DNA of 21,353 nt, from IMG/VR virus record IMGVR_UViG_3300034418_003752, positions 1 to 21,353 of that record, one strand, 5' to 3'. This DNA comes from a virus. The position numbers and the translations under genes were made by a program. Within the stretch, counting starts at the first letter, position 1. Each line of letters begins with the position of its first letter. Shown in pieces: positions 2,599-21,353 of this stretch. The notes under the pieces were generated by a model. That model did no database searches, had not been told where the DNA came from, and worked only from the letters and a program-made list of their open reading frames with translations.

Positions 2599-2853
2599 CT
2601 AATCGAAAACATGGTACATCTCCCATGTAGGAGCGTCATCATCCCACCGCACCACCGTGTGCGACTCGCACGATGGCTCGAACACGTAGTCCGAGGACGG
2701 CACGCGCTTGAAGTAGCAGTAATCATCACCCTCTTTGAGGATGATTTCGACAGCCCAGTTCGCGGCTTGCAGGGCGTCTGCGAAGTTTCGCTTACAGCGG
2801 AACTCGCCTCCTCCCTCGAACGGGAAGACAAAAGCAAAAATTGGTTGTGACAT
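2599..2853 (-). CDS. hypothetical protein, 84 aa
   Basis: A mixed alpha/beta protein. The N terminus is hydrophobic with a glycine turn (FAFVFPFEGGGEF), then one helix (residues about 24-40, ADALQAANWAVEIIL), then strands ending WDDDAPTWEMYHVFD. The layout strand-turn-helix-strands is that of many small phage proteins, but no family is recognised. I prefer this frame to an overlapping 174-codon frame because it has normal residue composition and a compact start just after the preceding hairpin. The leader (CTTTAAATCTTCGATTT) is A/T-rich and only partly matches the conserved leader. Confidence 0.65.
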   Translation of the reverse strand: MSQPIFAFVFPFEGGGEFRCKRNFADALQAANWAVEIILKEGDDYCYFKRVPSSDYVFEPSCESHTVVRWDDDAPTWEMYHVFD

Positions 2854-2890
2854 AAATCGAAGATTTAAAGGTTAGACATTTTGAAGAGTG

Positions 2891-2918
2891 ATGACACTCC
2901 CTTAGAAAGGGAGGTCAT
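2891..2918. other. long hairpin enclosing the stop codon of the 184-aa gene
   Basis: ATGAC-a-CTCCCTT, loop AGA, AAGGGAG-GTCAT: twelve pairs with one bulged A. On the minus strand the stop codon TAA (2904-2902) lies in the loop and the adjoining stem. No T-tract follows. This is the left end of the hairpin array. Confidence 0.65.
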
Positions 2919-3456
2919 CAGAAGTTGGGCATCCTTCGGCAATCAAGGCTTCAGCCTCAAGGCGTAGACGCTCTATCTCCGCAGAGCGGAGCCGAGCCAT
3001 AGCCTCCTCTGGAGACTCTCCTGGAAGGAGAGTAACCTTCATCTGTTGCTTCTTGCGAGCCTTCGGCTCGATCACAGGCACCTCCTTACGAGGCTCGAAA
3101 GGCTGAGGTTCACCTTCGGTGATGGCGTGAACAACCTTGGTCTTGGTGACCTTGCCAACTTTGTTGGCAGTGTTCTGCTTGGCTTGAGCTTGCTCAAGTC
3201 CTGCATCAGATGCCTTACGAGGAGAACGAACAGCCTTCGTCTTCTTCGAAGACGCTTTGCGTTTCTTCGACTTGGGCTTGGAAGCCTTCGGCTTCGGTTG
3301 CTCCTTCGGAGCCTCGATGGACTCGATGAGAGCCGACAACGATGCTAAAGCATCGAGGCAAGTCTTCTGCTTAGCAGAAGTAGGGTTGAACATGAAGCTG
3401 TTAACAGCTTTCTTAGTTGCCTTCAGCAACTCGGAGTGATTGATGGTGTTAGCCAT
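2902..3456 (-). CDS. basic Lys/Pro/Ala-rich low-complexity protein, 184 aa, encoded within a hairpin array
   Basis: Residues 1-48 are an ordered helical segment. Residues about 49-90 are a strongly basic Lys/Pro/Ser/Ala-rich stretch (for example KPKSKKRKASSKKTK). Residues 91-140 are a Lys-rich linker, and residues 141-180 form a charged helix (SPEEAMARLRSAEIERLRLE) ending in an acidic tail. This looks like a nucleic-acid-binding or scaffold-like tail around two helices, but no family is recognised. The start has an A/T-rich leader (TTAATCTCTTAACAAA). The gene is the first leftward gene beside the putative origin. Its DNA holds about 20 small perfect hairpins, a property that does not arise from the protein sequence alone because the same motif falls in different reading frames. 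Confidence 0.7.
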   Translation of the reverse strand: MANTINHSELLKATKKAVNSFMFNPTSAKQKTCLDALASLSALIESIEAPKEQPKPKASKPKSKKRKASSKKTKAVRSPRKASDAGLEQAQAKQNTANKVGKVTKTKVVHAITEGEPQPFEPRKEVPVIEPKARKKQQMKVTLLPGESPEEAMARLRSAEIERLRLEAEALIAEGCPTSDDLPF

Positions 3457-3948
3457 TTTGTTAAGAGATTAAGAGTTAAAGAATGAATTCACAGAATTCC
3501 ATTCATTCTTTTACTCTATCTCTACCTCTCTCACCGTGCGAATCAGCAAGCTGATTTGTCGACGCGGTGATTATCAACACGCGGCATCGAAGATGCTTCA
3601 TGTGGGTTGAGGAAACCGACTGAAAATCAAGGTGGTAGTCAACCTTCATTGATGAAGGTTATTTGGGGCTAACCAAAGGTTAGGGGGGTATTGTCCTACC
3701 TCTCTCTCCCTCAATGCTTTAGGCATTGGCCTCAACCACCTAAACAATCGCTTCAACTAAGCATAACTAACTAACTGATTCACAGTAGGTAAGAGGCTGT
3801 CACCTAGAAAAGCTGAAATGTATGCGGCACCGCACGATACATCGCACCCACGGGGTTCGCAGGATGCGTTTCGGGTCCGCGCGCCTGACGCTGTGTGATA
3901 TACATTATCCCCCCGATCTGTATGACGCATCATTTTTTAAAGCCCTCG

Positions 3949-3968
3949 TTATTCACAGGTTATCCACA
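3949..3968 (+). other. tandem DnaA boxes TTATTCACA and TTATCCACA
   Basis: Both 9-mers match the DnaA box consensus TTATNCACA exactly, in the same orientation, with starts 11 bp apart, about one helical turn. A weaker 7-of-9 match (ATATACACT) lies close downstream near 3977. Two perfect boxes in phase in a non-coding region are unlikely by chance and would let host DnaA bind side by side. Confidence 0.65.
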
Positions 3969-9520: not shown

Positions 9521-9743
9521 CTATCCTTCTACAATAGATTATTACAGCGATGAATGGACTCATGAGTGGTCTAGTGGTGTGGATGGCACCGCACATTTTA
9601 ACCCATGTAACACGCCTAACCCACCGTGGTGGTGCGAAGAAGAAGAGCCCGTCCCCGTCGAACCGAACATTTTAATAATTGTTGGAATGTTCATGTATGG
9701 AGCGTTACTTTTGAAAAAATGCACCCGTAGCTCAGCTGGATAG
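9492..9743 (+). CDS. small single-pass membrane protein, 83 aa, stop codon inside tRNA-Arg
   Basis: A Pro/Trp/Glu-rich N-terminal part (PCNTPNPPWWCEEEEPVPVEP, residues 38-58) precedes one membrane helix (residues 59-75, IIVGMFMYGALLL) and a KK end. The last six codons (TRSSAG) and the TAG stop are the 5' end of tRNA-Arg. Topology would be N-out, C-in. A holin or spanin role is possible because the endolysin has no signal peptide, but a single short helix and an acidic ectodomain are not diagnostic. Confidence 0.55.
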   Translation: MPQQDGTLTSYPSTIDYYSDEWTHEWSSGVDGTAHFNPCNTPNPPWWCEEEEPVPVEPNILIIVGMFMYGALLLKKCTRSSAG

Positions 9744-9794
9744 AGCATCTGCCTTCTAAGCAGACGGCCACAGGTTCGAATCCTGTCGGGTGTA
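9721..9794 (+). tRNA. tRNA-Arg (anticodon UCU)
   Basis: A 74-nt cloverleaf: acceptor GCACCCG/CGGGTGT (G1-U72 wobble), D arm with GCTCAGCTGGATAGAGC, anticodon stem TCTGC/GCAGA with loop CTTCTAA (anticodon TCT at 9755-9757) and T arm ACAGG-TTCGAAT-CCTGT. CCA is not encoded. It decodes AGA and AGG; AGA is common in the late genes here, so it may boost late translation. Confidence 0.95.
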
Positions 9795-9812
9795 CGAATT
9801 AAATTAAACAAC

Positions 9813-14608: not shown

Positions 14609-15055
14609 ATGGCAAATCAAATCAACTTAGATAGGTCGCAAAGAGTAGACATCACTTGCAAGCGAGGAGACACGTTTAACCTTAACCTCGAACTCAAGGA
14701 TGATGCAGGAATAGCTTTAGTTTTGGGTAACACTCAGGACTCTAATCTTTCTGATTATTACTTCTACAAGATGGAGGTTAGGGAGGTTGACACTCATGAT
14801 GGGACAGGTGGGCCAGGAACCACTGAGGGATATGTTTTGCAAATGGATGGCACCGTCTCAACCACAGACGATGGCCTCGTTACTTTTACTAAATCTCACG
14901 ATCAAATGACTGGGGTTAACGTTCCTTCTGGGATTTATGTCTATGATATTCAGCAAAAAATCGCCCCCAATTCAGGTGGTACAAGCCCTTCTTCTGTAGA
15001 GACTTTGCTTTACGGTATTTTCAAAATTGTAGAAGACGTAACGGTTGCTGTATAA
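14609..15055 (+). CDS. small beta-rich protein before the fibres, 148 aa (possible baseplate or fibre adaptor)
   Basis: The N-terminal part reads RVDITCKRGDTFNLNLELKD, like the first strands of BppU-N-type baseplate domains, followed by many Thr/Ser/Gly strands, a FYKMEVREVD strand and a GIYVYDIQQKI strand. It probably forms a beta sandwich that anchors the fibre. It lies directly before, and overlaps, the fibre gene (TAATG). The BppU-like match is by eye. Confidence 0.6.
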   Translation: MANQINLDRSQRVDITCKRGDTFNLNLELKDDAGIALVLGNTQDSNLSDYYFYKMEVREVDTHDGTGGPGTTEGYVLQMDGTVSTTDDGLVTFTKSHDQMTGVNVPSGIYVYDIQQKIAPNSGGTSPSSVETLLYGIFKIVEDVTVAV

Positions 15056-18042
15056 TGGCTAGGGCTAGAATCAACGTAACCGTCTCTAAAGGCCCTAAAG
15101 GAGACAAAGGGGATACTGGCGCTACAGGTGCCCAAGGATTAAAAGGGGATAAAGGAGATAAGGGTCAGAAAGGTGACACAGGTGATGCAGCCACCATCAG
15201 TGTAAGCTCGTCAACACAAACAAAATCTCCAGGAACTAACGCTACCGTTATAAACACAGGTACATCTTCGGCTGCTGTATTCGAGTTTGCTATCCCGCAA
15301 GGAGCAACAGGGGCGACGGGGGCGACGGGCCCACAAGGAGCAACAGGGGCCACAGGTCCGCAGGGTCCTCAAGGCATTCAGGGTGAGACAGGCGCTACAG
15401 GTCCACAAGGACCGCAAGGCATTCAAGGCCCAGCAGGGGATATCTCCACTTCCAGCATAGATGATCTCACCGACGTAGACACCACCACGGTAGCACCTGC
15501 TGACGGCCAGGCTTTGGTGTGGGATGACGCGAACAGTCAATGGGAACCAGGTGATGTTGGAATTGACGGTATAGTTTCTGCTCCAATAGATAAGGACAAT
15601 TTGTCTGAGTGGAGGGTGTCTTCATCATCTCAAATGATAAGCGTAGGCTCATGGACTTACAATGGGATAACAAAGGTTCCATTTGGCGAAGGCCATCCAA
15701 GAGATCTATATTTCAAGCCAGACGGCACAAGGCTTTACGTTGTTGGGAACGGTCTTGATGATATTGCCTCTGTGGACTTGCCTGTTGCCTGGGATTTGAG
15801 TTCGCTTAGTTCGTCATCAACCGTCACCACAGTTAATATTGCTGGGTCTAGTTCTATTGGCGGATCAGGACTTGAAGGTAGCCTTTATAGTTTATACGTA
15901 GCCTCAGACCCTAATGATACAGACACATACGGTAAAAAGTTTTTCATCTGTGGGTCATCAAAAGATGAGGTCCAAGAATATACATGTTCAACTGCGTGGG
16001 ATTTATCTACCATGTCTGTGGACGCAACGGATTACTTGCAAGTTAGTTCAGTCACAGGTGGATCACCCTATGGTGTGACATTCAAGCCAGACGGGTCTGT
16101 CATGTACGTATCGAACACAGGTTCTGGTGTTTTTCATTATGACCTGTCAACTAACTGGGATTTAAGCACTGCCGTACATGATTCAAATAAATCTATAAAT
16201 CTATCCCTCTTTGATTCGGCTAATAATGCAGAGACGCAAATCCGAAATCTTACTTTTTCAAGTGATGGCACAAAGGTTTATATAGTTGGTGACGGGAGGG
16301 AGTGCTTATGGCAACTCAACCTGTCTACACCTTGGGATATTTCAACTTATATTCAAGACCAGGTTCTCACTCTCGGTAGTGGTTACATTGAGAACTCTTT
16401 TGATTCTGGACATAATTTCTCGGTTAGTTCTGGCGTTTACAACACGGATGATTATTTCTTTATTTTATTCAATCTTAATGACCAAATAATAAGGATAGAC
16501 AAAGTTGGTAACTTAATAAGTATTGATGGTTCTTACATAGAGAGCAGACCTGAATTTATGAATGGCCTTACTGCTTATTCTAGCATCTCTACAACTGGAA
16601 ATATATATGCCCCAGGTGCTGGATCTCGATTTGGTGGCAATATGTATGTTAATGGGCAGGTAAACATAGGTACTATTAATGGAAGCGGACTGTATCAGAA
16701 TGGCTCGCAGTTTCATGTTGGAGCACCATGGATAAGATTTAGTGGTGAAGGCCAAGCAAACGTTGGTGCTAACGAATACGGTCTTTACTTGAGGCCAACG
16801 GCTGGATATCGAGACGCTCTTTACAATTTGTACCTTCCCAATGTTAACGGAACCCTTAAGACCGATCAGGAAACCTATTATCTTGGAAGGTTTGATTCTG
16901 AAGCTGAATCAAAGGTCACTGGGGCCACAGAGGTAGTTGAATACTATTACACGGCAAGGGCAGATGGTCAAGGAGAAAAGGAGGCTTTTCTTTACGATGT
17001 CGCTGCGTCAGGGCAAACGATATCTAGAAAGGTTTATTACGCCACTAAAGCCCTTGCGGATCCAGATACCGCTGTTGATTGGACACTCGACACTTCGCAC
17101 TCATCTTATACTGACTCCGTTACCGCCGCTAAAGCTTTGCTGAACTCGGCAACATCTGGTACACCCCCTCTAACTCTTAAGGTGGCTACTACGGGTCTCT
17201 CCAGTGTAAACTTCTTAAAGCTAGACAGTGGTGATTTCACCCTGGCTTACAGCTTGAGGCTGGTAAACCCAAGCTACACTGGAGCGGCAATAAGGGTCAT
17301 AAACGACAGCAATGTGGAGGCAGACATCGGTTTTGTGGAAGAAGAACTTGACACTACGGCTCTTTTGAATCACTGCGGTTCAGGAGATGGGTACATCACG
17401 ATTTGGTACGATCAGGCTCAAAACGGGGCTACGGGATCGGGGAACGACGCTAGTTATGGCAACCCTTACTTCACTCCAGTGAATCGACCTAAGATTGTCA
17501 GTGCTGGCTCTGTGCTCACTGATGGCGGTAAGCCGTGCTTGTTTGTTGAGGACTCCTCTCTTCAGTTAGAAAGCCAGGTAGACTTCACTCCAAATGGAAC
17601 CATGATTGCTTACGTGGCTTCAAAGGATGCCTCCGCAGACTTCAACTCTGGTATGATACTGGGCGACTTCCAAGGAACTAGCAACCAACAGAACAGAATC
17701 TGGGAGAAAACCACGCAAATTGAAGGTCAAGTTCATGGCAGTAACACAAATTACACGTTTGCATCTCCAGAAGACGGGACTGTTGTTGGAGCTGGTCAGA
17801 AGTTAGTTGCTTTTTACAGAGATTCTTCTAATTATTGGTATATAGACAGGAATTCTGTAACCTCTGGAAGCAGTCTCAATAGAAACTACAATTTTTGCGT
17901 TCAGACCTTGTTTAACGGCTACAACACTATAGCGTATTCTTATCATGGAAACGTACAGGAGATTGTTATGTTCAATACTGATAAATCCTCTGAGCGAGCC
18001 GCGATTAAGTCAAACATCAATACGTACTACAGCATTTACTAA
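15055..18042 (+). CDS. collagen-like tail fibre with WD-like and ABF-type domains, 995 aa
   Basis: Host-recognition fibre. Residues 13-45 and 83-129 are collagen-type Gly-X-Y repeats (for example GDKGDTGATGAQGLKGDKGD), separated by a spacer module (residues about 48-82: AATISVSSS ... AAVFEFAIPQG). Residues about 205-480 contain propeller-like repeats with FKPDGTRLYVVG, FKPDGSVMYVSNTG, FSSDGTKVYIVGDG and W-DLST. Near 725-810, AYSLRLVNPSYTGAAIRV and ITIWYDQA resemble the arabinofuranosidase-B-type fold used in phage fibres. The last 180 residues look LamG/concanavalin-like, ending in QEIVMFNTDKSSERAAIKSNI. Trimerisation by the collagen part is expected. No chaperone domain seen. TAATG coupling to the next fibre gene. 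Confidence 0.85.
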   Translation: MARARINVTVSKGPKGDKGDTGATGAQGLKGDKGDKGQKGDTGDAATISVSSSTQTKSPGTNATVINTGTSSAAVFEFAIPQGATGATGATGPQGATGATGPQGPQGIQGETGATGPQGPQGIQGPAGDISTSSIDDLTDVDTTTVAPADGQALVWDDANSQWEPGDVGIDGIVSAPIDKDNLSEWRVSSSSQMISVGSWTYNGITKVPFGEGHPRDLYFKPDGTRLYVVGNGLDDIASVDLPVAWDLSSLSSSSTVTTVNIAGSSSIGGSGLEGSLYSLYVASDPNDTDTYGKKFFICGSSKDEVQEYTCSTAWDLSTMSVDATDYLQVSSVTGGSPYGVTFKPDGSVMYVSNTGSGVFHYDLSTNWDLSTAVHDSNKSINLSLFDSANNAETQIRNLTFSSDGTKVYIVGDGRECLWQLNLSTPWDISTYIQDQVLTLGSGYIENSFDSGHNFSVSSGVYNTDDYFFILFNLNDQIIRIDKVGNLISIDGSYIESRPEFMNGLTAYSSISTTGNIYAPGAGSRFGGNMYVNGQVNIGTINGSGLYQNGSQFHVGAPWIRFSGEGQANVGANEYGLYLRPTAGYRDALYNLYLPNVNGTLKTDQETYYLGRFDSEAESKVTGATEVVEYYYTARADGQGEKEAFLYDVAASGQTISRKVYYATKALADPDTAVDWTLDTSHSSYTDSVTAAKALLNSATSGTPPLTLKVATTGLSSVNFLKLDSGDFTLAYSLRLVNPSYTGAAIRVINDSNVEADIGFVEEELDTTALLNHCGSGDGYITIWYDQAQNGATGSGNDASYGNPYFTPVNRPKIVSAGSVLTDGGKPCLFVEDSSLQLESQVDFTPNGTMIAYVASKDASADFNSGMILGDFQGTSNQQNRIWEKTTQIEGQVHGSNTNYTFASPEDGTVVGAGQKLVAFYRDSSNYWYIDRNSVTSGSSLNRNYNFCVQTLFNGYNTIAYSYHGNVQEIVMFNTDKSSERAAIKSNINTYYSIY

Positions 18043-21000
18043 TGGCTATAAACTTCGACAGCGACACTAACCAGGTAAACATCACGGTACCATCACCGAC
18101 TACTATCACGGTGACCAAACCCGCTGATGTTTCTGTTACGGTTACAGAAAAAGGAATTAAAGGGGATGCAGCCACCATTACGGCGGGTACGGTTACCACC
18201 GTGGCCGAGGGTGTTCCTGCGGCTGTAGTGAATAGCGGTACCACGAAGGATGCTGTATTTGACTTCTCCATCCCAACTGGTCCAACGGGGGCTACTGGTG
18301 ATGCCGCTACCATCACGGTTGGTACTGTAACTACGGGCGTAGAAGGGAGTTCAGCCACAGTCACTAACTCTGGCACAAGTGGGGCTGCTGTATTTGATTT
18401 CTCAATTCCTGTTGGGGCCACGGGAGCGACTGGCGCTACAGGAGCTACAGGAGCTACAGGACCTGCTGGTGCAGATGGTGCAGATGGACAGGGGGTTCCC
18501 ACAGGGGGTGTTGCAGATCAGATAATTGTTAAGCAAAGCGCTACTGATTACGATACCGCTTGGGATTACATTCAGACAATTACAGAAGCCGTAAAAAACG
18601 TAAGTGGCGGCCCTCTTGACAAGGGCACCCCACTCCACGTCACTGGGTCTACTGGAAACACCGTTGAGGTTATTGCTGCAGATGCAACCACTAATTACCC
18701 AGCGCACTTAATTCTGAACGAGGACCTTGTTGACGAAGCAGAGGGAAGGGCCGTTGCTTTAGGCTTTATAAACAACATAGACGTCCCTGATGCATCTATC
18801 TATTCTGAGGGCCAAACCGTTTACCTTGGTGCTTCGGGTGGATGGACAACCACTAAGCCAACTGGTACTAGCGCTATTCAGAACCTTGGGGTTATCGTTA
18901 AAGTAAACGTTTCTGGGAACAAAATCTCGGGCGTTGTGCTTGGAGCTGGGAGAGCTAATGACGTGCCGAATTTACCTTCTGGTAAGTTCTTTATTGGTAG
19001 CGCTACAAACACTACTACGTCTGCATACACGCTTCCTACTGCTGACGGCACAACAGGACAGCTTTTACAAACCGACGGTGCTGGTGCGGTTACGTTCGTA
19101 GACTTCTCAGGATCCCCTTGGACAACCTCTGGTAGCGACATCTACTACACTGCTGGGAATGTAGGAATTGGAACTAGCTCTCCAGGAGTAGCGCTAGATA
19201 TCGCTGGCCAGATTAACGCTACTTCTAGCACATTCCCAGTCCTTGGCTTTACAAGAGAAACCACCCTCACCTCTGGTGCATTTACTGACGCTACTGGTAT
19301 CGCTAGCGCAATGGAACTCACCACTAAGACAAGTGGCGACATGGGTGACGGTTTTGGTGGAGGTATTGTATTTACCCTTAATGACGTAACAGAGACGTCT
19401 ACTAGTAATTACGTAGCTAGATTATACGCTCGAAGAGACGGAGCAGACAATACGGGGGCTTTACAATTCTTTACTGGAACGAACGGTCTTGACCCATCTA
19501 TGATAATTAGAGGGTCTGGGAATGTAGGTATCGGTACGGCTACACCTGCTGAGGCATTGGATGTTGTTGGAAAAGCTAACATTACGGACGCTAGTAATAA
19601 CGTATTAATATCTACTGGGAATAGCACAATTACTGCAACCAACACAGTAGCAGTAGGCTACCAAGCTTTAACTGCCTTAACCATAGGAGCTGGGAATACT
19701 GCTGTAGGTTATCAGGCTGGGGATGCTTTAACCGCTGGATCAAACAACACTCTCTTAGGTTATTCTGCTGGAACAAGCTTAACTGGTAGTAATAACACCA
19801 TTCTAGGGTATGAAGCTGGGTTGAATGCTGTCGGTTATGGAAATCAAGTTTATGTAGGTTACAGGGCAGGGGCTGGGTTTTCAGGGGATGATGACCAATG
19901 CGTTATGGTTGGTTCTGAAGCTGGTGGGTCCAATATGGGAGCTTGGGGAGTTGGCGTTGGTTTTCAAGCTAACTACAATACAAGCGGCTATGGCATCGTA
20001 GGCGTTGGGTATCAAGCTAACAGAACAAACACTGGTGCTTACTCTGTTGGGATTGGGCATGAAGCAGGATATAATAGCTCTGGAGAAAATTCAATTAGAA
20101 TTGGAAAGCACTCAGGTTATAGCTCCACTGGTGCAAACACCATTGCTATAGGTGCAGACTCCTTAAAAGTTACTACGGTTGACAACACAGTAGCAGTAGG
20201 TTACGAAGCATTAAAAGCGCTGACTACTGGTGGGTCTAATACTGCGCTTGGTGACAGAACATCAAGGGCTATAACTAGCGGTAGCGGAAACACCTCTGTC
20301 GGCATATTGGGTTTAAGCAACGTAACAACAACAAGCAACAACACTTCTGTTGGTGCTCAGGCATTGCAATTAACCACTGGGTCAAACAACACGGCTGTTG
20401 GTTTTCAGTCTGGTAATTCAATAACTACTAGCTCTGATAATACACTTCTTGGTTATGCTAGCGGTATTTTTAATACTGGGTCACAGAATGTAGCCCTTGG
20501 TAGCAGGGCTATGTACGGATCCCCTGGTTCTTCAACCTTCTCCAATACAGTAGCAGTCGGATACCAAGCATTAACCGCACTAACTACTGGAACGGGTAAC
20601 ACAGCAGTAGGTTATCAGGCTGGGGTTGCTTTGACTACTGGGGCTAACAACACGTTCCTTGGCTATCAGGCGGGAGACTCAATACTTCAGAGCAATAATA
20701 CCATTATAGGCTATGGAGCGGGGGCAACTGGTGCTAATGTCAATGGGACTGTGATTATAGGTTCTGGGGCAGCTGCCTTAGCAACAGGACCAACATATGG
20801 GGTTATCATAGGCTATCAAGCGGCAGGAAGCGCTGCCCAAAACGCTGGAAATGGCGGGGTTGTTATCGGTTTCAGGGCTGGTCAAAACAACACAGGTACT
20901 GGAAACGTGTTAATTGGGGCGAATGCTGGTCAGACTGGTAATGGTGTCGATAATATTTTCATAGGGAAAAACTCAGGTCAAAACGAAACAGGCTCCAACA

Positions 21001-21353
21001 AACTCTACATAGAGAACAGCAACTCCACCACCCCACTGATTTACGGGGAGTTCGATAATGACATCCTTAGAGTAAACGGCTCTTTCGAGGTTACTGGAGG
21101 TGTGACGGCAGATGATGGCGGTCTCACCGCAGCGGGAGACTATGGTAAAGGCGCAGAGATTTGGTATCAAGGTGCCTCCACCCCAACGGCTGGAAGCGTA
21201 TACTACTTAGACAGCTCAGGGAACTGGGCTAATACAGATGCCAGTGCTGTAGCTACGGCCAAGGGTATGATAGCAGTTTCGACAGGAACAGATTCAGACG
21301 TTGACGGAATGTTAATTAAAGGATTTGTGTACGTAGGCGCTGATCCTGGAGGC
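18042..21353 (+). CDS. second tail fibre, collagen plus YadA-head-like repeats, open at right edge (at least 1104 codons)
   Basis: Residues 1-155 hold two copies of the spacer module (DAATITAGTVTT ... AVFDFSIP and DAATITVGTVTT ... AVFDFSIP) and short GATGATG collagen runs. The middle has GNVGIGTxxP segments (near 372 and 493), typical of phage fibres. Residues about 533-980 contain 27 repeats of the xxGYQAG type (AVGYQAL, AVGYQAG, LLGYSAG, FIGKNSG ...), the pattern of trimeric autotransporter (YadA/Hep_Hag) heads, so a left-handed trimeric beta roll is likely. The gene continues past the window, so a C-terminal chaperone or receptor domain may follow. The spacer is shared with the previous fibre, so the two genes are related. 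Confidence 0.85.
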   Translation, partial: MAINFDSDTNQVNITVPSPTTITVTKPADVSVTVTEKGIKGDAATITAGTVTTVAEGVPAAVVNSGTTKDAVFDFSIPTGPTGATGDAATITVGTVTTGVEGSSATVTNSGTSGAAVFDFSIPVGATGATGATGATGATGPAGADGADGQGVPTGGVADQIIVKQSATDYDTAWDYIQTITEAVKNVSGGPLDKGTPLHVTGSTGNTVEVIAADATTNYPAHLILNEDLVDEAEGRAVALGFINNIDVPDASIYSEGQTVYLGASGGWTTTKPTGTSAIQNLGVIVKVNVSGNKISGVVLGAGRANDVPNLPSGKFFIGSATNTTTSAYTLPTADGTTGQLLQTDGAGAVTFVDFSGSPWTTSGSDIYYTAGNVGIGTSSPGVALDIAGQINATSSTFPVLGFTRETTLTSGAFTDATGIASAMELTTKTSGDMGDGFGGGIVFTLNDVTETSTSNYVARLYARRDGADNTGALQFFTGTNGLDPSMIIRGSGNVGIGTATPAEALDVVGKANITDASNNVLISTGNSTITATNTVAVGYQALTALTIGAGNTAVGYQAGDALTAGSNNTLLGYSAGTSLTGSNNTILGYEAGLNAVGYGNQVYVGYRAGAGFSGDDDQCVMVGSEAGGSNMGAWGVGVGFQANYNTSGYGIVGVGYQANRTNTGAYSVGIGHEAGYNSSGENSIRIGKHSGYSSTGANTIAIGADSLKVTTVDNTVAVGYEALKALTTGGSNTALGDRTSRAITSGSGNTSVGILGLSNVTTTSNNTSVGAQALQLTTGSNNTAVGFQSGNSITTSSDNTLLGYASGIFNTGSQNVALGSRAMYGSPGSSTFSNTVAVGYQALTALTTGTGNTAVGYQAGVALTTGANNTFLGYQAGDSILQSNNTIIGYGAGATGANVNGTVIIGSGAAALATGPTYGVIIGYQAAGSAAQNAGNGGVVIGFRAGQNNTGTGNVLIGANAGQTGNGVDNIFIGKNSGQNETGSNKLYIENSNSTTPLIYGEFDNDILRVNGSFEVTGGVTADDGGLTAAGDYGKGAEIWYQGASTPTAGSVYYLDSSGNWANTDASAVATAKGMIAVSTGTDSDVDGMLIKGFVYVGADPGG
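19641..20636 (+). repeat. in-frame direct repeats inside the second fibre gene
   Basis: The block AACACAGTAGCAGTAGG plus TACCAAGC recurs starting at 19641, 20184 and 20544. Copies one and three stay similar for about 93 bp (19641-19733, 20544-20636). Spacings of 543 and 360 bp are multiples of three, so recombination between copies would keep the frame and change fibre length. Confidence 0.7.

Follow-up and report, generated by a model that had tools for sequence, protein, structure and literature searches.

A one-sided array of strictly paired mini-hairpins overlaps a gene beside an origin-like site in a clade of uncultivated tailed phages

Strand synthesis is started by stem-loops in single-stranded DNA at G4, the M13 intergenic region, RSF1010 ssi and rolling-circle sso. 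To our knowledge, no hairpin array has been described at an oriC-type origin. The early promoters of phage N4 are small hairpins with 3-nt loops, which are extruded below physiological supercoiling (PMC4496689). The 3' overhangs of Streptomyces telomeres carry packed palindromes that are bound by Tap/Tpg (PMC4513846). An earlier note on the DNA studied here, made from its letters alone, reported an array of small hairpins and knew of no described element of this form; a search of the open-access literature likewise returned no described array that matched it.

The source sequence was IMG/VR record IMGVR_UViG_3300034418_003752. The whole stretch analyzed, 21,353 nt, is called the window, and its coordinates are used for the array. 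A hairpin was defined as a perfect inverted repeat with a stem of at least 6 bp and a loop of 2-5 nt, and hairpins were counted without overlap. A mechanical scan of positions 2891-3728 (838 bp) found 17 such hairpins, all with stems of at most 9 bp, where the earlier note had claimed 16; its coordinates and its chance estimate also held. Dinucleotide-shuffled versions of the 838 bp had 0.88 +/- 0.90 hairpins with a maximum of 5, and none of 1000 reached 17. The array outreaches this region by a further hairpin at 2853-2867, and an additional 11-bp stem with a 12-nt loop lies inside it at 3478-3511. The features are as follows, with the strand given where a feature has one.

2853-3728: hairpin array over the non-coding leader and the gene, 18 perfect inverted repeats (stems 6-9 bp, loops 2-5 nt; found by the scan, with covariation in relatives)
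2853-2867: hairpin taaatcGAAgattta, in the gap that separates the array gene from the next gene; L001 and L002, two relatives, have it at the corresponding position
2897-2913: hairpin ctcccttAGAaagggag, at the 3' end of the array gene; identical in L001 and L002
2902-3456, minus strand: gene of a 184-aa Lys/Ala/Ser-rich protein (the array gene), carrying 11 hairpins; homologs in about 35-37 IMG/VR loci
2977-2991: hairpin ctccgcAGAgcggag (scan)
3015-3033: hairpin actctcctGGAaggagagt (scan), helix 39 of the covariation analysis
3056-3070: hairpin cgagccTTCggctcg (scan), helix 38 of the covariation analysis
3153-3169: hairpin tgccaacTTTgttggca (scan), helix 35 of the covariation analysis
3183-3198: hairpin cttgagcTTgctcaag with a 2-nt loop, helix 34; its innermost pair covaries in homologs
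3238-3254: hairpin cgtcttcTTCgaagacg (scan)
3281-3295: hairpin gaagccTTCggcttc (scan)
3340-3355: hairpin cgatgctAAagcatcg, helix 20; homologs vary in both arms
3364-3380: hairpin cttctgcTTAgcagaag, helix 19; both arms and the amino acids vary, with pairing retained
3395-3410: hairpin aagctgtTAacagctt (scan), helix 18 of the covariation analysis
3415-3431: hairpin agttgcCTTCAgcaact (scan)
3478-3511: longer stem of 11 bp with a 12-nt loop, inner hairpin gaattcACAgaattc at 3485-3499, just upstream of the start codon (sequence and single-strand fold); relatives have a long hairpin of altered sequence at the matching place
3541-3556: hairpin aatcagcAAgctgatt, non-coding leader (scan), helix 14
3641-3660: hairpin aaccttcatTGatgaaggtt, leader (scan), helix 8
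3669-3683: hairpin ctaaccAAAggttag, leader (scan), helix 7
3712-3728: hairpin caatgcTTTAGgcattg, leader (scan)
3906-3923, minus strand: conserved motif ATACAGATCGGGGGGATA, marking the array's upstream edge; each genome tested has a single good copy
3949-3957, plus strand: DnaA-box-like site TTATTCACA (box scan)
3960-3968, plus strand: DnaA box TTATCCACA, in tandem with TTATTCACA, 11 bp apart

It had also been claimed that the array passes the start codon at 3456 into non-coding DNA and that protein coding is not the cause of the hairpins. The ORF at 2902-3456 on the minus strand bore out the former, and three codon-level nulls the latter. Against the 11 hairpins within the array gene, 1.65 were left after permutation of synonymous codons, 0.60 when the codon order was permuted, and 0.55 when codons were redrawn from the usage of neighbouring genes (0/1000 in each case). 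The excess thus stands under the codon-preserving shuffle that the earlier note had named as a check, and codon usage and protein repeats were excluded as its cause. The non-coding part of 2891-3728 held 5 hairpins, compared with 0.26 expected under the null. An assembly artefact was also excluded, since contigs from many metagenomes repeat the array. REP/BIME-like dispersed repeats have copies that share sequence and lie in many places; here there were 357 distinct stem-loop sequences and one array per long genome, which excluded a spreading repeat. Most stems did differ from one another, as the earlier note had said, but a few in relatives reuse cgaagccNNNggcttcg.

Covariation was analyzed in a 20-sequence alignment, with the hairpin structure taken from relative L008, which is at the upper end among relatives with about 36 hairpins across ~1.25-1.3 kb. 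The covariation of the L008 hairpins was 0.170, compared with 0.086 +/- 0.003 in shuffled alignments (0/500), so the stems do covary among homologs, a further check that the note had proposed. When the partner was slid, the score was 0.04-0.067, a control that favours the L008 structure, which itself comes from one of the aligned sequences. In total, 91 pairs were altered on both sides. Amino acids were changed in 34 of the 35 gene hairpins that were perfect yet differed from L008, although these changes come from related sequences and are not independent events. At one site the stem-preserving variants were TPSKKE, SASKKQ, TSAKQK, and TPSKKV; at a second site they were AKPKAS and ASSKKT, and at a third GLELTQA and GLEQAQA. 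Among the other gene hairpin comparisons, 79 were scored as lost and 71 as having one mismatch, which partly reflects distant members aligned in another register. With amino acids altered in all but one of the 35 re-sequenced yet perfect hairpins, structure overrides protein sequence in the array gene. The covariation, the stem-preserving amino-acid changes and the codon-preserving shuffles strongly support the earlier proposal that structure is under selection and that no repeat has spread.

The pairing and loop rules were then compared between DNA and RNA. Across 34 loci there were 490 perfect stems of at least 7 bp (null, 9.8). Among stems with a single mispair, 76 had one G-T (null, 21) and 69 had one A-C (null, 27), and the other classes were similar. 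The non-pairs in conserved hairpins were 5 G-T, 16 A-C and 54 other cells, and the G-T to A-C ratio in distinct imperfect stems with at least 3 pairs on each side was 16:8, compared with 35:22 in the background. Pairing is strictly Watson-Crick, and stems containing G-T are no commoner than stems containing A-C. Loops of 3 nt were found in 163 of the 357 distinct stem-loops, loops of 2 nt in 92, of 4 nt in 26 and of 5 nt in 15, while the background was much flatter. The pair closing the loop had a 5' pyrimidine and a 3' purine in 89% of cases, compared with 44% in the background (p = 8e-37), both in the leader and in the gene; nearest-neighbour energies of this pair did not discriminate between a DNA-specific and an RNA-specific rule. 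The 2-nt loops were mainly TT or AA, equally frequent on the sense strand, and the strand bias of loops leaned in opposite directions in leader and gene and so singled out no strand. Hairpin loops in RNA normally need 3 nt. RNA structure should also accept G-U on the transcribed strand, so the lack of a G-U preference disfavours selection on RNA. Mainly because G-U pairs are missing and 2-nt loops are common, these data suggest that the hairpins act as DNA rather than as structured RNA. The RNA roles put forward in the earlier note, an mRNA stabiliser or an RNA decoy, are disfavoured by the same intolerance of G-U pairs.

All array-bearing sequences are uncultivated metagenomic contigs. About 35-37 IMG/VR loci were homologous to the array gene, and about 30 contigs of one tailed-phage clade carried the array, which in relatives is 1.3-2 kb long. 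Close homologs (69-77% amino-acid identity) had hairpins at matching offsets from the start codon, often with changed stem sequences. Hairpins were still dense in the distant homologs L088, L113 and L075 (about 30% identity), and the array ran on into the next, different genes of L042, L088 and L113; thus, the array belongs to its place more than to one protein. The two long contigs, G001 (63.5 kb) and G002 (55 kb), had a single array each, at 20-22 kb and 34-36 kb, respectively, with the background level of hairpins elsewhere. Homologs that keep the protein without the stems were what the earlier note had set against selection for structure. About 30 homologs keep both, whereas the distant homolog in G005/L257 has few stems and that in L045/L258 is probably similar. 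Contigs G006 and G007 were without an array, and a search of them for the gene homolog found none. No arrays were present in the large parts read of elemo, phi18:3, phi38:1, Panino and the Manatee Spring podovirus, which are more distant relatives, cultivated or named.

At least eight homologous contigs (L007, L094, L107, L108, L109, L110, L112 and L117) terminate inside the array, as if it were hard to assemble or varied from strain to strain. The motif scan of IMG/VR included chance matches among the matches listed, and the clusters in L163, L184 and L220, also among the matches listed, were rejected as the same array for their dissimilar appearance. Positions 3610-4576 of L163, an apparently unrelated contig of 34% GC, held 13 small hairpins, some with repeated cccc...gggg arms, and L187 held a similar cluster; these may be a different kind of cluster.

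We analyzed the surroundings of the array. Its onset is sharp at the motif, which has the consensus of about TAATACAGATCnTGGGGATTATATATA and in each genome tested a single good copy. DnaA-box-like 9-mers lie at about -45 and -33 (or -72 and -60) from the motif, often two in tandem. At least one such site was found in about 26 of 30 motif-bearing loci, against a background at up to one mismatch of about 0.02 per 200 bp, with many of the conserved boxes carrying 1-2 mismatches. This evidence is correlative, and there are exceptions: no boxes could be recognised in L088, although it has the motif and hairpins, and L115 and L116 have arrays without the motif. In both G001 and G002, the cumulative GC skew is lowest at the array, where gene direction also switches. 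A primase-helicase is encoded by G001, as is a protein with DnaA domain IV (PF08299, E 8e-6, which does not reach Pfam's own cut-off). Upstream of the motif, both the density of hairpins and the signature of closing pairs were near background; they peaked over the leader and the gene, and decayed from about +600 to about +2000; therefore, the array is one-sided and graded from the motif. A strong promoter of the Bacteroidota type, at about +1000, does not end the hairpin signature in some loci. A promoter of this type (TTG-N19-TAnnTTTG) lies in the window at about 2540-2575 on the minus strand, after the second gene of the leftward unit, and is kept in most homologs. The earlier note had suggested an ssDNA or lagging-strand origin or a packaging signal beside the DnaA boxes. 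The origin part gains from DNA structure near conserved DnaA-box-like sites and the motif, the GC-skew minimum, and the DnaA-domain protein of one relative; for packaging, no link was found.

The 184-aa protein had no match in Pfam, PHROG or PDB searches, nor among GenBank phages or GTDB genomes. In its predicted model (mean pLDDT 65), residues 7-47 form a helical hairpin, the Lys-rich middle is disordered and a helix lies at the C-terminus. The array gene of L003-L010 contains an extra ~50-aa block with SRKAEIEAVLTSGKKLKRAERSVLNKELHALLQEE (e.g. L008 6210-6390), which is variably present among homologs and itself bears hairpins. From its presence and absence, it looks as if array segments move as modules. 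Elsewhere in the window, the large ORFs at 15055-18042 and 18042-21353 contain collagen-like Gly-X-Y stretches, the ORF at 18042-21353 has many GNNTAVGYQAG-type repeats that are adhesin-head-like, and a tRNA-Arg (TCT) gene lies at 9721-9795 inside the late gene region. The terminase ORF of G001 (26692-28828; L126) is in two pieces, which may reflect a frameshift or insertion, or else a sequencing error.

Our leading reading, held tentatively, is that the array is a selected DNA-level structure of a Bacteroidota tailed-phage clade, a one-sided series of ~20-36 fold-back elements with strict pairing and free sequence, about 1.3-2 kb long, beside a probable replication origin. With slightly more reserve, we consider it possible that no element of this class has been described before: dozens of mini-hairpins, strictly paired but independent of sequence, would form a polar field over coding and non-coding DNA at a tailed-phage replication origin, and DNA folding would dictate the sequence of an overlapping protein. 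From the sequence context we infer that the site is a replication origin; the hairpins would form as DNA in vivo and may act during initiation. What resembles an origin kit is present at the site, in this order: DnaA-box-like sites in tandem, the conserved motif ATACAGATCnTGGGGATT and an AT-rich repeat. DnaA, encoded by the host or the phage, would open the duplex at the motif, and the strands opening toward the array would fold into tiny hairpins and so be held apart. At the many hairpins, the phage primase-helicase could load or prime in a structure-specific way, and initiation would be polar as a result. For polar, strictly paired, sequence-free hairpins beside DnaA boxes, DNA structure used at strand separation appears to be the simplest account. 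Counting against the origin reading, G005 and L045 keep the motif and the gene homolog with few hairpins.

The main rival is a structured mRNA, in which the unit transcribed leftward from the motif would fold from its 5' end onward, as protection against RNases, as a control on translation or as a protein-binding structure. Along the direction of the gene and of transcription, the array does lie after the motif, and distant homologs whose promoter adjoins the gene have fewer leader hairpins; these observations fit an RNA role and count against the origin reading. The fold of the array was extreme as RNA (z = -7.4), but no less so as DNA (z = -7.8), and Rfam gave no match. Moreover, G-U was no commoner than A-C, 2-nt loops were common with TT as frequent as AA on the sense strand, and the signature extended past the strong downstream promoter in some loci. 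We therefore regard a structured mRNA as unlikely.

A serious non-adaptive rival is template switching, by which single strands exposed at an origin would fold and a polymerase would copy one arm from the other, perfecting palindromes and leaving a footprint tolerated by a fast-evolving protein. It predicts perfect Watson-Crick pairing without G-T intermediates, changes in both arms, decay away from the motif and a low-complexity protein. However, close homologs keep the hairpin positions relative to the start codon while the stems change, dense coverage survives deep divergence and is also seen in unrelated genes, and the loops are restricted to 2-5 nt, whereas longer spacers are also subject to template switching. 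We judge it quite improbable, and hardly less so a reading in which the hairpins are recognised by other proteins, as N4-type promoters for an injected RNA polymerase or as a site of packaging, ejection or segregation. N4 uses small stems with 3-nt loops, the uncontacted stem bases of which may be any pair (PMC4496689), and both contig ends of G001 fall in a giant virion-type ORF; both points favour this reading. Unlike in N4, no base was common to all stems or loops, dozens of sites are many for promoters, and the array showed no link with packaging. The pieces of the giant ORF had no match to a virion RNA polymerase by Pfam, PHROGs or PDB sequence, searches that remote homology may lie beyond.

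If the DNA-level reading is true, the array gene would be a clear case in which DNA secondary structure, and not RNA structure or protein function, is a main constraint on a coding gene. Other phages and plasmids can be searched for its signature: stems that differ from one another, pair strictly, enclose loops of 2-3 nt with a Y-R closing pair and form a one-sided gradient from a DnaA-box motif. An origin role, if true, would point to a so far undescribed way of opening or priming a phage origin, while a template-switch footprint would be a striking natural record of that mutational process.

Compared with known systems, the array resembles several in part. In RNA phage and virus coding RNAs, as in the array gene, base pairing constrains the coding sequence, but those structures accept G-U and varied loops, whereas the array does not tolerate G-U and has mainly 2-3 nt loops. 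The hairpins of G4, M13, RSF1010 and sso are one to few, specific, mostly non-coding and found in ssDNA phages or plasmids, unlike the array. Streptomyces telomeres share with it many small DNA hairpins of differing sequence side by side, and theirs are replicative, some closed by stable 3-nt loops. However, those palindromes lie at linear ends, are specific and conserved, and have a terminal protein, while the array is internal in G001 and G002 and lies over a protein gene, with no such protein identified. N4 promoters also are small DNA hairpins with 3-nt loops, and their stems can vary if paired; there are three of them with conserved contact bases, in contrast to 20-36 hairpins without shared bases, for which no such polymerase was found. 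Neither system fits as a family, and by analogy both may serve as precedents for small DNA hairpins that are read by proteins. With oriC-type origins, the array site shares tandem DnaA boxes in the same orientation 11-12 bp apart, an AT-rich stretch and, in G001 and G002, a GC-skew minimum that coincides with the switch in gene direction.
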